64,000 nt of DNA from Peredibacter starrii. Lineage in GTDB: Bacteria > Bdellovibrionota > Bacteriovoracia > Bacteriovoracales > Bacteriovoracaceae. The stretch covers positions 3,658,001 through 3,722,000 of the forward strand of contig NZ_CP139487.1 in NCBI RefSeq assembly GCF_034259205.1, given 5' to 3'. The translations under genes and the position numbers were made by a program. The notes beneath the pieces are model-generated. The model saw only the letters and a program-made list of their open reading frames with translations, had not been told where the DNA came from and ran no database searches. Positions 52,181-57,652 of this stretch are shown here, in pieces; within the stretch, counting starts at the first letter, position 1, and each line of letters starts with the position of its first letter.

Positions 52181-52966
52181 TTAGCTGGCGAGATCTTCGT
52201 AAGACTCGAACTGGTTACGAAGCTTGGCCTTAAGCTTTAGGATCGCCTGAGTGTGAAGCTGAGACACACGTGACTCAGTTACATCCAGAACCTGGCCAAT
52301 TTCTTTCAGGTTAAGGTCTTCGAAGTAGTAAAGAGAAAGAACCAGGCGCTGCTTTTCAGGAAGGGCCTTAATACCTTCTTTGATGATCTCCTGAGCGCGC
52401 TTATAACCAACAGCTGTCTGAGGGTTGGCACCACGAGAAGTCTCCATAAGAGAGACCATGAGCTTCTTATCACCTTTACTCATTGCCGCTGCATCTTCGA
52501 TATTCAGAAGAGAGACCGACTTTGATTTATTGATAAGCTCATGGAACTCATCCATCGAACACTGTAAGTGTTCGCACATTTCTTCATCTGTAGCTGGACG
52601 GCCCAGGTCTTTTTCAAGCTTGGCATACGCCTTCTCTACTAGCTTGGCCTTTTCACGAACTGAACGAGGTACCCAGTCCTGAGAGCGAAGTTCATCAAGA
52701 ATCGCTCCGCGGATACGGAATTCAGCATATGTTTTAAATTTGTTATCACGTGATGGATCGAATTTCTCAATGGCATCCATAAGACCGATAACACCACATG
52801 AGATCATGTCATCAAGTTCAATATTTGGTGGAAGACGAGAAGCGATCTTCTGGGCGATATAACGAACGAGTGGAGCGTATTCAAGAATAATTTCATCTTT
52901 GACCTTAGGGTCAACAGTTGAACGGTAGTCTTTTAAATTTTTAAGTTTGGCCGTGAGTGATGACAT
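52181..52966 (-). CDS. fliA: RNA polymerase sigma factor for flagellar genes (FliA/WhiG)
   Basis: Sigma-28 factor that directs late flagellar and chemotaxis genes. Region 2 is seen in LVRYIAQKIASRLPPNIELDDMISCGVIGLMDAIEKFDP (about 32-70) and TYAEFRIRGAILDELRSQDWVPRSVREK, region 3 around 115-160, and region 4 in LPEKQRLVLSLYYFEDLNLKEIGQVLDVTESRVSQLHTQAI (about 203-243), the helix-turn-helix for the -35 box. 261 residues. It is last in the fliL-fliA series, before a strong terminator. An anti-sigma factor FlgM is not in the window. Confidence 0.94.
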   Translation of the reverse strand: MSSLTAKLKNLKDYRSTVDPKVKDEIILEYAPLVRYIAQKIASRLPPNIELDDMISCGVIGLMDAIEKFDPSRDNKFKTYAEFRIRGAILDELRSQDWVPRSVREKAKLVEKAYAKLEKDLGRPATDEEMCEHLQCSMDEFHELINKSKSVSLLNIEDAAAMSKGDKKLMVSLMETSRGANPQTAVGYKRAQEIIKEGIKALPEKQRLVLSLYYFEDLNLKEIGQVLDVTESRVSQLHTQAILKLKAKLRNQFESYEDLAS

Positions 52967-52991: not shown

Positions 52992-53870
52992 TTAGTGAAC
53001 ATCGTGTTCATAGGCCAACTGACTTGTCCCATTCAGAGGAGAAGTCAGCGGTCCACCTACTTTTTCGGTGAACCCATATAAAAGTTTAACGAAGTTTTTA
53101 TTCCATTCATTTTTGTTTTCAGAGAGGAAAAAAGTATCAAATCCTGAGGCATCTACATCGAATTTCTGGATCCCTCCAAGGATATGCGTGCGAGCACCAA
53201 GGAAATTCTCGATAGTTTCACTCAGGGTCATCACCACTTTCTGGAACTGTTTCTCGCTCTGATACATGTTCACCAGAAGATGGTTCTCTTTGATCCCGAA
53301 GCGGGTCGCAAGAAGCTTCACCAGTGAGTATGAATCAGTGATTGATGATTTATCCGGAGTCACAATCACCCAACGGTGATCGCAATAAGCGTTTAACGTA
53401 AGGATTTCTCTAGACACCCCTGCCGGGCAATCAAGCAGGATGAAATCGTATTCATGCTCATGTGAAGCGATAATATCGATGATGATTTCGTCGAAGTTTA
53501 GTTTTGATTCAAAGACCGAGATTGAACCGTTACATGCCGGAAGCAAGTGGAAGTTTCCTTGCTGAATCAGGCAATCTTCGAAATTCGCCTCTGCAGAGAG
53601 AAGTTTTTCGAATTTATTATCAAGGGGAAGACCCATCTTGATCGCTGTATTTGAAAGATTTGAATCGCAATCAATCAAGAGTGTGCGGTGACCAGCGAGT
53701 GCCAGTTCTTTTGCAGTCTTTAATGCGATTGAGGTTTTACCTACTCCGCCCTTTCCACCCGTGATGGAAATTTTAGTACAGGCGAAATCACTAGCTCGTC
53801 TTAGTTCTGACTTCTTGGTGGGATTGTTCGTGGTCGAAAACGATTGAAGCCACTCGCTAGTTTTGTGCAT
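52992..53870 (-). CDS. flhG: FlhG/FleN, MinD-like ATPase controlling flagellar number
   Basis: 292 residues. Deviant Walker A KGGVGKT (40-46), switch I-type DCDSNLSN (about 68-75) and switch II DCPAG (about 147-151) are all intact. The family normally carries a short N-terminal motif DQAxxLR that stimulates the GTPase of FlhF; the N-terminus here (KTSEWLQSFSTTNN) has no such motif. In other bacteria FlhG limits the number of flagella and regulates FliM/FliN assembly and transcription. It lies between flhF and fliA, the usual polar flagellum order, so the identity is firm. Confidence 0.9.
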   Translation of the reverse strand: MHKTSEWLQSFSTTNNPTKKSELRRASDFACTKISITGGKGGVGKTSIALKTAKELALAGHRTLLIDCDSNLSNTAIKMGLPLDNKFEKLLSAEANFEDCLIQQGNFHLLPACNGSISVFESKLNFDEIIIDIIASHEHEYDFILLDCPAGVSREILTLNAYCDHRWVIVTPDKSSITDSYSLVKLLATRFGIKENHLLVNMYQSEKQFQKVVMTLSETIENFLGARTHILGGIQKFDVDASGFDTFFLSENKNEWNKNFVKLLYGFTEKVGGPLTSPLNGTSQLAYEHDVH

Positions 53871-53956: not shown

Positions 53957-55528
53957 TTAGAACTGAAAGAGACCTGACATCAGTCTTTCAGCTGTCGCAC
54001 CTTCGATATCATCCGGAACTACTGGTCCTGTTCCGAAGAATTTGAGAGGAAGCTTGTTGTGGGCCTTATGAACGTTGAAGAGAGCTCCGAAGTTCATACA
54101 GAGGTCCACATGAGAAATGATAACACCGTCTACAATCTCCTTGTATCGGGCAATTATTTTTCGGTTATATAATTCAGAGTGAATCGCCGAAAGTGTGCAT
54201 AGAACTTCTACGTGCTGGAAACCACGTTTCAAAGTCTCAACGAATTTTTTTGTTTCATCCGTGTATTTGCTATTCAGGCGTACATCCACCAGGACAGATT
54301 TGCCGGCTTCCACCGCTTTACGAGATAGGCCTACTACTTCTGAGAAGTTTTGCACCTTCTCGACCTTGATTCCAAACACCTGGGCGGCAAAGTCCGTAGA
54401 AGCGTTATTTTGAGCGTCTTGTGAGTACTGGATAAGAACCACGTCCTTCTTCAGAACCGCGATTTTAGTGCCCATTGTGCTTTGACCAGAGGCCGCTTCA
54501 GAAACCAGAACCGTCACTACCGGCTCGCCTGATTCGATTTTTGCAAATAGAGGAATCGAAGTATTAATTGAGCTCGCCATTTCCTGCAGAGCAAATTCGA
54601 AAATCACATCTGGATTCTCAAGATCTTCTTTCGAAAGTTCGTAGTTGGCCTTCTTGATGAGCTCAAGAATATGGGCCTCATCAACATCCAAAGTTTTAAG
54701 TGTTGTACGAAGCTGGAAAATCCCCTTCGCTTCATTCAGGTGCTTTTGATTGAACTGATAATTTTGTGAAAGCTCCATGATCTTTTGCTCAAGGAGTTCC
54801 ATCTTATGCTGAGTCGTTCTTAGTTCTTGTTTTAGTTCATTATAAGCTTCACGGCTTACTGTCGAACCCGCTGGTGCTGCCGGAGCTTGTGGCTCACGAA
54901 GAGGATTTCTTGTGATCTCAACTGTGTCTTCCGTCATCTGTGGCTGAGGAACTGGACGCTCTTGACGAGGTCTCGCCTGCTGAACCGGACGGGCCTGTTC
55001 ACGGCTTTGAGGTGGCTCAGCATATTTACCACGATTCGATGGACGAACCGGCGCCGGTGTATCATCGGCGGAATCAATATCAAATCCAGAATCATCTCCG
55101 TCAGTCAAAAAATCATCCAGACTGCTTTTGATGAGTGAAGAAGTTTTTGTCGTCATGTCCGCCAGGCCAGCAGAACCTTTAGCAAGTGTATTCACCACTT
55201 TGTTAAGTCCCATGCTGCCGTAGCCGGCCTGACCTGCACCTTGTGCATCCTGACCGTTATATTTTGTAATTGTTTCTTTAATGGTAGAGGCGGGCTTTTG
55301 GTAAAAAGCTTCTTTTTGTTCTGTGTTCAAAACTTTATCCACCTTTGCCTTCTTCTCAAAGCTTCGCTCAGAGATGGCCGCTGTGATCTCAATGCGCTTT
55401 TTCTTAAAGGCACCTTTAAGACCATTGTTAGTGATGGTTTTCAGAATGATGGCATCAGGACCAAGTTCAACTTTTACCTGTTTTAAAGCTTCTTCTAATG
55501 TGTCAGCTTCGAACTTCTTGACGAACAT
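53957..55528 (-). CDS. flhF: FlhF, flagellar SRP-type GTPase homologue with lost nucleotide motifs
   Basis: 523 residues. The N-terminal B domain (MFVKKFEADTLEEALK) is standard, followed by a long Pro/Gln/Arg-rich region (about 155-225) and the NG-domain (about 230-523). The landmarks where FlhF binds GTP are changed: G1, normally GPTGVGKT, reads SEAASGQST (343-351); G3, normally DTAGR, reads DVRLNSK (415-421); G4, normally TKLD, reads SHVD (472-475). The G5-like end FGTGPVVPDDIE (498-509) and the general order of strands are kept, so the frame is right and this is a decayed or rebuilt GTPase, not a frameshift. FlhF normally places the flagellum at the pole; here it probably acts without GTP hydrolysis. 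Confidence 0.9.
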   Translation of the reverse strand: MFVKKFEADTLEEALKQVKVELGPDAIILKTITNNGLKGAFKKKRIEITAAISERSFEKKAKVDKVLNTEQKEAFYQKPASTIKETITKYNGQDAQGAGQAGYGSMGLNKVVNTLAKGSAGLADMTTKTSSLIKSSLDDFLTDGDDSGFDIDSADDTPAPVRPSNRGKYAEPPQSREQARPVQQARPRQERPVPQPQMTEDTVEITRNPLREPQAPAAPAGSTVSREAYNELKQELRTTQHKMELLEQKIMELSQNYQFNQKHLNEAKGIFQLRTTLKTLDVDEAHILELIKKANYELSKEDLENPDVIFEFALQEMASSINTSIPLFAKIESGEPVVTVLVSEAASGQSTMGTKIAVLKKDVVLIQYSQDAQNNASTDFAAQVFGIKVEKVQNFSEVVGLSRKAVEAGKSVLVDVRLNSKYTDETKKFVETLKRGFQHVEVLCTLSAIHSELYNRKIIARYKEIVDGVIISHVDLCMNFGALFNVHKAHNKLPLKFFGTGPVVPDDIEGATAERLMSGLFQF

Positions 55529-55531
55529 TCT

Positions 55532-57610
55532 TTACAACCTCACGGTACCGAGAGATCTGATATTGACTTCTGGACTAAGTTCATTATGGCTCACCACAAT
55601 CATGTTGGGAATGAATTTTTCAGTCAACTTCTTGAAATGACGGCGGATAACTGGTGAGCAAAGAATCACCATTTTCTCCCCTTGCGAAGTTGCTTCTTCA
55701 ATCTTCTCATTGAGTGAAGCCAGGATAGTTTGAGTCACTTTAGGATCGAGGTTTAACTGCGATCCATGATCAGTGTGGATAATTGAACGGGCAACGGCCT
55801 CCTCAAGACTACGATCCAACGTAAAGAGCGGAACGTCTCCCTGAGAGCCTTTAATTTTTTCTGTAATGGTCCTATAGAGGGCCTGACGAACGTATTCAGT
55901 AAGGGCCTCAGAATCTTTAGTTCCAGTACCGTATTCGGCCAGAGTTTCAAGAATTGTGCGAAGGTCTCGAACTGAAACGCCTTCACGCAACAGGGCCTGC
56001 ATAACTTTAAGCACAGTTCCCAGAGGCATAATGTCCGGAACAAGGTCTGAAACGATTTTCGGATTGTCTTCCTTGAAGTTATCAAGAATCTTAACCAGTT
56101 CCTGACGACCAAACATTTCAGAAAGGTTCGCTTTTAGAACTTCAGTTAAGTGAGTCGCCACAATTGTTGAAAGATCAACCACTGTATAACCATTGTATTG
56201 AGCTTCATCTTTACGATCATCAGTGATCCAGATCGCAGGAAGACCGAATACAGGTTCCTTCGTCTCGACTCCGTCCATCTGCTCAATCACCGTTCCCGGG
56301 TCCATTGCCATCATATGATCCGGCATAAGTTCACCGCGAGCGATCTCAATCCCTTTAAGTTTGATTGAGTAACCGCCTGGCTTAAGCTCCAGGTTATCCT
56401 TGATTCGAACTGAAGGAATGATCATCCCCCAATCAAGAGCAAATTGTTTTCTGATGTGTGAAATACGTTCAAGGAGATCACCGTTTTGTTCAGCATCTAC
56501 AATTGAAACAATTCCATACCCCACTTCAAGTTGCACAAGTTCAACCGGAAGAAGAGATTCAAGCGTTTCAGCTTTCGCTTTTGCTTCAGGAGCAAGAGCG
56601 GCCTTAACTTCAGCGGCCTTCGCCATTTCTTTGTTCTTCTCTACTTTGTGTCCAGCATAACCAATCAGACCACCGATCATCAGGAACGGGAAGGCCGGGA
56701 AACCTGGAATCAAACCGAAGACAGCGATTGAAGCCGCTGTGATATAGAAAGCTTTTGGATGGGCCGTGAATTCTTGATTCACCTGCTTACCAAGGGCCTC
56801 AGAGTTTGAGTTACGAGTTGTGATAATACCGGCAGCAGTCGAAATCACGAGTGCCGGAATCTGTGCAATAAGTCCATCACCCACAGTCAGGAGTGTGAAA
56901 GTTCTGGCCGCATCTGAAAATGCCATATCATTTTGGGCCACACCAACAATGATACCGCCTACGATGTTAATCGCTGTAATCAAAATACCGGCGATGGCAT
57001 CACCTCGAACGAACTTCGAAGCACCGTCCATTGACCCGTAAAAGTCTGCTTCTTGAGCAACTTCAGCACGACGGCGTTTCGCTTCTTTGTCATCAATCAG
57101 ACCAGCATTCAAGTCTGCATCGATCGCCATTTGTTTACCAGGCATTGCATCTAACGTGAATCGAGCACTTACTTCAGCTACTCGACCAGCACCTTTGGTG
57201 ATTACGATAAAGTTAATGACCACGAGGATCATGAAGATAATGATACCCACAGCATAGTTACCACCTACTACGAATTCACCGAAGGCCTCAATGATGTGAC
57301 CAGCGGCCTTTGTACCATCCGCTGCTCCGTGAAGAAGAATGTTTCTTGTTGAAGCAACGTTAAGTGAAAGACGTAGAAGTGTTGTAATGAGAAGCACTGA
57401 TGGAAAAGTCGAGAAATCCAGCGGCTTTCTCGCGTAAACCGACATCAAAAGAATTCCGATTGATGTTGCAATCGAGAATGCCAAAAACAAATCCAGAATA
57501 ATTGGAGGAAGTGGAACAACCATCACACCCAGGATTAGAATTAATCCTAGAGCAATTGCTAGTTCTGAATTTTGAGAAAAGACTTTGAGCTTTTCTAAAA
57601 ACCTGTCCAT
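55532..57610 (-). CDS. flhA: Flagellar export gate protein FlhA
   Basis: Core of the flagellar type III export apparatus. Eight membrane helices in the first 320 residues, with the FHIPEP-type loop PGKQMAIDADLNAGLIDDKEAKRRR (about 147-171) conserved, and a cytoplasmic domain (about 350-692) that docks export chaperones. ATG 57610 is chosen because AGAGG lies five bases before it; GTG 57616 overlaps that site. 692 residues as expected. The gene is followed by flhF with 3 bases between, and preceded by flhB. Confidence 0.97.
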   Translation of the reverse strand: MDRFLEKLKVFSQNSELAIALGLILILGVMVVPLPPIILDLFLAFSIATSIGILLMSVYARKPLDFSTFPSVLLITTLLRLSLNVASTRNILLHGAADGTKAAGHIIEAFGEFVVGGNYAVGIIIFMILVVINFIVITKGAGRVAEVSARFTLDAMPGKQMAIDADLNAGLIDDKEAKRRRAEVAQEADFYGSMDGASKFVRGDAIAGILITAINIVGGIIVGVAQNDMAFSDAARTFTLLTVGDGLIAQIPALVISTAAGIITTRNSNSEALGKQVNQEFTAHPKAFYITAASIAVFGLIPGFPAFPFLMIGGLIGYAGHKVEKNKEMAKAAEVKAALAPEAKAKAETLESLLPVELVQLEVGYGIVSIVDAEQNGDLLERISHIRKQFALDWGMIIPSVRIKDNLELKPGGYSIKLKGIEIARGELMPDHMMAMDPGTVIEQMDGVETKEPVFGLPAIWITDDRKDEAQYNGYTVVDLSTIVATHLTEVLKANLSEMFGRQELVKILDNFKEDNPKIVSDLVPDIMPLGTVLKVMQALLREGVSVRDLRTILETLAEYGTGTKDSEALTEYVRQALYRTITEKIKGSQGDVPLFTLDRSLEEAVARSIIHTDHGSQLNLDPKVTQTILASLNEKIEEATSQGEKMVILCSPVIRRHFKKLTEKFIPNMIVVSHNELSPEVNIRSLGTVRL

Positions 57611-57652
57611 GGTCACCTCTTAAAGAGTCGCTCATCCTGAGCTAAAAATTTG

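Follow-up and report, generated by a model that had tools for sequence, protein, structure and literature searches.

FlhF has been described as a GTP switch that governs where the flagellum is placed, and species vary as to whether GTP binding, GTP hydrolysis or neither is essential. We know of no earlier pseudo-enzyme among Ffh, FtsY and FlhF, and in the open-access literature (subscription journals and preprints were outside the scope of the search) we found neither a published FlhF pseudo-GTPase nor a paper that treats FlhF together with Bacteriovorax. Eukaryotic pseudo-GTPases, for example the dynein light intermediate chain and CENP-M, use a G-protein fold without nucleotide motifs as a scaffold, but they belong to a different branch of the P-loop fold and are neither SRP-type nor bacterial. 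Ffh, FtsY and FlhF have been named as the sole members of the SRP GTPases (PMC12826062). The N-terminal FliG-interacting domain (FID) of FlhF binds FliG, and the binding of its NG domain to HubP is nucleotide-independent in Shewanella (PMC11236974); FlhG-stimulated hydrolysis is thought to let FliG proceed to FliM/N (PMC11236974, PMC12713375). The GTPase of FlhF is stimulated by the DQAxxLR stretch of FlhG (PMC12826062), and in B. subtilis the N-terminal part of FlhG has the NG domain of FlhF as its target (reviewed in PMC12826062). In V. alginolyticus the GTPase activity of FlhF is dispensable, as the GTPase-dead variant R334A is functional, and most point changes in G1, G3 and G4 reduce or abolish flagellation (PMC6092412). 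Here we describe the FlhF of the Bacteriovoracales, which has evidently given up GTP, and we infer that these bacteria probably place their flagellum without a GTP switch. They thus provide a natural experiment, extending across a whole order, in which the task of the fold, bringing FliG to the pole, is separated from the contribution of the nucleotide.

The flhF locus and its distribution

The window, by which we mean the whole stretch of 64,000 nucleotides of Peredibacter starrii DNA that was analysed, contains the flagellar gene run fliL-M-N-O-P-Q-R-flhB-flhA-flhF-flhG-fliA (Table 1). The order flhA-flhF-flhG-fliA, which is expected of an FlhF orthologue and is common to Vibrio, Shewanella, Pseudomonas and Bacillus, is present around the gene at 53957-55528. 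With the FlhFs of these bacteria (structures 8R9R and 2PX0/2PX3/3SYN, and 9EN1 for the FID) the protein also has in common the plan of FID, linker and NG domain, the NG fold, the G5 loop and the Asp residues of G3 and G4. Judged from these comparisons, the gene is by ancestry a true flhF orthologue, but its product does not satisfy the motif criteria that define an SRP GTPase. A family profile matched 2PX0 and 9EN1 in the PDB, and the FID was recognised both by the match to 9EN1 and by alignment; influenza haemagglutinin matches in the same search were rejected as coiled-coil artefacts from the linker region. The SRP54 family PF00448 matches FlhF with E=4.6e-8, starting only at profile position 51, past G1, and the score with the FlhF equivalog model TIGR03499, a model of a GTPase in which the G1 region is included, is 56 bits and does not reach the cut-off of 174. 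The named relatives, with 75-90% identity, comprise Bacteriovorax stolpii and metagenome assemblies of Bacteriovoracaceae.

The fold itself was examined by structure prediction, a check that the first-pass annotation had proposed. In the AlphaFold2 prediction, made with 57 sequences, confidence is good for the FID and the NG domain and the closing-loop region at the C-terminus is poorly placed. The best PDB match found by Foldseek with this model was 8R9R, the GDP-bound FlhF of S. putrefaciens (TM 0.74 by target length), followed by NG structures of Ffh and FtsY. According to the model, the NG domain keeps the SRP-GTPase fold.

Table 1. Coordinates of flhF, its neighbours and their domains and motifs in the window
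Feature	Position	Strand	Remarks
flhF, putative pseudo-GTPase version	53957..55528	(-)	523 aa, ATG start
flhA, upstream neighbour of flhF	55532..57616	(-)	
flhG (MinD-type ATPase)	52992..53870	(-)	Walker A intact, without DQAxxLR, N-terminal HKTSEWLQSF helix
WLxSxN helix of FlhG	about 53811-53870	(-)	replaces DQAxxLR
fliA (sigma-28), downstream gene	52181..52966	(-)	Pfam sigma-70 regions 2, 3, 4
Candidate partner X, 767 aa	49750..52053	(-)	directly downstream of fliA
FliG-interacting domain (FID), residues 1-60	55349..55528	(-)	9EN1 match; pLDDT >90 over most
Disordered linker, residues 61-235	54824..55348	(-)	low pLDDT at 95-124 and 141-223
N domain, residues 270-335	54524..54721	(-)	helices 268-330, pLDDT 89-96
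Putative pseudo-G domain, residues 336-523	53960..54523	(-)	predicted SRP-GTPase fold without canonical GTP site
Former P-loop (G1), residues 343-351, SEAASGQST vs GPTGVGKTT	54476..54502	(-)	Gln349 replaces catalytic Lys
Former G3, residues 415-421, DVRLNSK vs DTxGR	54266..54286	(-)	alignment
Former G4, residues 472-475, SHVD	54104..54115	(-)	Asp kept, Cys477 new
Retained G5/closing loop GTGPVVPDD, residues 499-507	54008..54034	(-)	alignment

Only three SRP54-type GTPase domains are present in the single-contig genome of 4.15 Mb, namely FtsY, Ffh and the FlhF of the window. A second, intact flhF, set beforehand as the observation that would refute a loss of the GTP site, can be discarded, as searches with PF00448 and TIGR03499 gave only FtsY and Ffh besides. 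Moreover, none of the 129 genomes of the order Bacteriovoracales contains an FlhF above the TIGR03499 cut-off, a level reached in 102 of the 241 genomes sampled across the phylum, and an FlhF of the family type is present in 119 of the 129; the remaining 10 lack FlhA as well, with the exception of draft G008. In a tree calculated without the motif columns, the family forms one side of a branch with weak support (52) and a long stem. A single loss of the GTP site, in the ancestor of the family, would be consistent with this picture.

The flhF gene is under purifying selection. Within the genus, pN/pS is 0.041 for the FID, 0.14 for the N domain, 0.13 for the G domain, 0.12 for the G1 loop and 0.38 for the linker; these values are rough because synonymous sites are near saturation. 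The FID, the FliG-binding N-terminus, is the most conserved part of the protein. Selection had been inferred in the first-pass annotation from the full reading frame, and it is indeed supported by pN/pS, but an open frame alone is weak evidence for it. The pN/pS values and the invariant residues described below rule out a pseudogene. Even the linker carries two motifs specific to the family, GYGxxGLNK (residues ~102-110) and LDDFL (137-141), in which Y103, L108, N109, D138, F140 and L141 are invariant in 57 sequences; neither motif was found in the aligned linkers of outgroup FlhFs. One copy from a metagenome assembly (L019, genome G081) has an in-frame TGA within the last 60 codons, probably a sequencing or assembly fault.

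The nucleotide site

We fixed the positions of the GTP-site motifs in two independent ways. One was a MAFFT alignment that included 45 phylum FlhFs from outside the family as well as the FtsY and Ffh of the same genome; the other was an alignment of the family profile with the solved structure of B. subtilis FlhF, 2PX0 (E=1e-6). Both put the motifs at the same places and bear out the assignment of SEAASGQST, DVRLNSK and SHVD to G1, G3 and G4 in the first-pass annotation: in the profile alignment 'lvseassgqssmllkiaa' lies beneath GSTGAGKTTTLAKLAA, 'vliDlklnek' beneath VFVDTAGRNF, and 'vishlDlClnfGalfn' beneath IFTKIDETTSLGSVFN. In the AlphaFold2 model the former P-loop has the expected architecture (pLDDT 81-88), with a strand at 338-343 leading through a loop into a helix at 349-359, exactly at the P-loop place. 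A G1 loop in another part of the protein, the second condition set beforehand for a refutation, can therefore be discarded as well. The sole GK[ST] triplet, AGKS at residues 407-410, was rejected as a relocated P-loop, since it lies between a helix (395-407) and a strand (411-417), the wrong order for such a loop, and is not conserved.

The P-loop GxxGxGK[ST] of an active SRP-type GTPase is not met in the FlhF of the window. At the position of the G1 Lys, Gln is found in all 111 sampled FlhFs of the Bacteriovoracaceae, unlike the orthologous FlhFs of other families of the phylum (Bdellovibrio-like and others), where Lys, within GK[ST], is kept in 45 out of 45; this survey of G1 loops without Lys took in one phylum only. 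The same change is present in the records of Bacteriovorax sp. BSW11_IV and DB6_IX and of H. marinus 36_234_T64. Because the change is family-wide, and identical in 111 sequences, chance, sequencing or assembly error and a single-species oddity are ruled out, and the question of whether the loss extends across the Bacteriovoracales, raised with the first reading of the gene, is answered positively.

As to the other motifs, the Asp/Arg motif of G2 (DTxR) has no counterpart in the alignment, and the DxxG of G3 is not met, its Asp (D415) being kept and its Gly lost. In G4 ([TS]KxD) the Asp is invariant and the Lys is replaced by His, Tyr or Asn in most sequences and kept in two of 55 representatives. 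The G5/closing loop GxG..PxD is met, in agreement with the G5-like residues noticed at the outset. The general claim that the GTP motifs are lost therefore holds for G1 and the G3 Gly, to which G2 can be added, but not for the G3 and G4 Asp residues D415 and D475, which are invariant. Likewise, the reported loss of TKLD was only partly right: the Lys of this motif is replaced and its Asp survives, and relatives that bear GKT often lack the G4 Lys too. On the alignments, the decisive losses are those of G1 (the Lys and two Gly), G2 and the G3 Gly.

Residue conservation was followed in a set of 55 family FlhFs less than 75% identical over NG. Gln349, Asp415, Asp475 and Lys355, the retained Lys of the G1 helix downstream of the loop, are invariant in all 55, and Gln349 is one of seven invariant residues of the NG domain. 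Ser343 (53/55) and Gly348 are conserved to 96-98%, residue 344 is Glu or Asp in 49 sequences, and in 52 there is no Lys or Arg at all between residues 341 and 353. Since Gln349 is invariant, the GTP site has been remodelled, not merely lost. Compared with the FlhFs of Vibrio, Shewanella, Pseudomonas and Bacillus, that of the Bacteriovoracales is without G1 Lys, G2 and DxxG, has Gln349, Ser343, Asn455 and Cys477 newly fixed and linker motifs of its own, and scores far under the TIGR03499 cut-off. As the residues that grip the phosphates are replaced (in G1, where two Gly have become Ser/Ala and position 2 is acidic, in G2 and at the G3 Gly), we infer, without biochemistry, that GTP-Mg is almost certainly no longer bound and hydrolysed in the canonical way; some residual or non-canonical binding of nucleotide is not excluded, since the G5 loop and the Asp residues of G3 and G4 are still there. 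The Vibrio mutants K305A, D377A, K437A, D439A and R334A (cited in PMC6092412) are changed at the same motif positions, and one change in a binding motif is enough there to impair or abolish flagellation, whereas in the Bacteriovoracales several such changes occur together in wild-type, polar-flagellated bacteria.

Weaker departures were also seen among the relatives, several of which are already without the G4 Lys. In ten FlhFs of family f4 (L089, L096, L099, L101-L105, L107 and L187), GK[ST] is kept and the G4 motif reads SSLD, TGLD, TSLD, THLD or NHLD; their cognate FlhGs are without DQAxxLR, which makes this a half-way state. Five FlhFs of families f2 and f13 (L175-L179), of ~350-380 aa, keep GK[ST] and have a shortened G2-G3 region from which DxxG is absent; the GTPase may have been weakened a further time here, independently.

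FlhG and the proposed mode of action of FlhF

The partner ATPase FlhG keeps its own KGGVGKT site. DQAxxLR was found in seven of eight FlhGs of families f5, f6, f7, f14 and f17, in none of 18 from families f4, f8, f11, f15, f18, f22 and f23, and in none of 102 from the Bacteriovoracaceae. The label Bdellovibrio-like, which we use for f4 and its neighbouring families, is inferred; the FlhFs of these families still have GK[ST]. In the Bacteriovoracaceae, the N-terminus of FlhG has in place of DQAxxLR a short helix with a conserved Trp, [S/D/E]WLxSxN, which occurs in 95 of the 102 by the strict pattern and in ~99 by eye and, within the phylum, in this family only. A stepwise history, with GTPase activation lost first and nucleotide binding later, fits these observations; it is an inference, and the deep branching order is unresolved. 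The FlhG of one genome (L024/L210, genome G104) has GSPGSGKT where GKGGVGKT is usual and is without the MinD signature lysine, which may be a peculiarity of the assembly or strain.

We consider it rather likely, by inference, that FlhF in these bacteria works without nucleotide as an adaptor linking FliG to a site on the polar membrane, and that control has passed to FlhG. One point against such an adaptor is that the binding of GTP, though not its hydrolysis, matters in Vibrio and Pseudomonas. The inference was drawn because NG-HubP binding is independent of nucleotide in Shewanella, R334A is functional in V. alginolyticus, and single polar flagella are known in the order, namely one polar sheathed flagellum in B. 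stolpii and B. starrii (PMC7175336) and one polar flagellum in H. marinus (PMC5760749). The FID would hold FliG, and hence FliF, and the pseudo-NG domain would dock at an as yet unidentified site of the polar membrane, so that the pole becomes the place where the first basal body is assembled. Release of FliG for completion of the C-ring would then be driven by the binding of FlhG or by its ATPase cycle; the WLxSxN helix, whose replacement of DQAxxLR is observed, is only inferred to have a role in this release. Absence of GTP binding, adaptor role, polar docking and control by FlhG are all four inferences, and in the absence of genetics so is the need for FlhF in flagellum placement in the Bacteriovoracales.

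A more specific form of this scaffold, which is possible but in our opinion doubtful, has the W-L helix of FlhG sitting constitutively near the old active site of FlhF, giving a standing FlhF-FlhG complex controlled by the FlhG ATPase alone. It would agree with the action of the N-terminal part of B. subtilis FlhG on the NG domain (PMC12826062) and with the fact that the FlhG N-terminus and the FlhF site changed in one and the same clade, where WLxSxN is new. However, DQAxxLR is also absent from the 18 Bdellovibrio-like FlhGs, with GK[ST] kept in their FlhFs, and from Pseudomonas FlhG (PMC12713375), and therefore its loss alone needs no pseudo-FlhF.

That the old active-site residues are among the most conserved of the domain, beyond what a mere scaffold needs, could instead point to a non-GTP switch, in which the invariant Gln349, Asp415 and Asp475 and the kept G5 loop form a pocket for some other molecule, be it a metabolite, a nucleoside or a second messenger of the dinucleotide type. 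Two elements that touch the base in SRP GTPases, the G4 Asp and the closing loop, are still present, but the phosphate-binding features are gone, most loops are acidic at residue 344, no family signature of another ligand is present, and the conserved residues could equally serve folding or protein contacts, so we regard this as unlikely. Weak GTP binding through the rest of the site, with Gln standing in for the P-loop Lys, seems very unlikely: a Ser/Thr still follows the Gln at the position of the Mg ligand, and G5 and the Asp residues of G3 and G4 remain, but there is no counterpart of G2, the two other glycines of G1 are replaced, the G3 Gly is lost, the loop is without a basic residue in 52 of 55 sequences, and in Vibrio a single substitution of the equivalent kind is enough to cripple FlhF (PMC6092412). 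Finally, a gene under relaxed selection that is being lost, while another factor has come to place the flagellum, is scarcely credible, for despite the long stem branch and the fast-evolving linker it is mostly refuted by conservation: pN/pS is low in the FID and in the N and G domains, there are residues that never vary in 57 sequences, and almost all flagellated genomes of the order have an FlhF.

The polar site and candidate partner X

For the adaptor that we favour, the docking site of the pseudo-NG domain is unknown, as the landmarks of gammaproteobacteria were not found in the genome. A search for the FimV/HubP C-terminus with TIGR03504 gave at best 16 bits, below the cut-off, and one for FipA (DUF2802) with PF10975 gave nothing above the cut-off; HubP/FimV and FipA were thus set aside as pole anchors, on evidence that is weak because the models are short. 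A candidate partner is the protein encoded directly after fliA, which we call X. In the model it consists of a membrane helix, a helical region, a second membrane helix, a PAS-like domain and a long coiled coil, and it matches no Pfam family. X follows fliA in all 58 family loci that extend this far and in none of 15 outgroup loci, and is present in 45 of 45 family genomes and in none of 99 others sampled. The link between X and FlhF is a lead that rests on gene order and co-distribution only. A bolder combination, in which FlhF would be the first pseudo-GTPase of the SRP family, with a non-GTP site centred on Gln349 (for another ligand or the W-L helix of FlhG), X replacing HubP, and FlhF-FlhG working as an ATP-only switch, seems to us rather improbable as a whole. 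X is also kept in a genome (G072, 99% complete) without an FlhA, FlhF or FlhG match, which rules it out as a purely flagellar partner; it must therefore also do something else, and a general polar organiser would fit.
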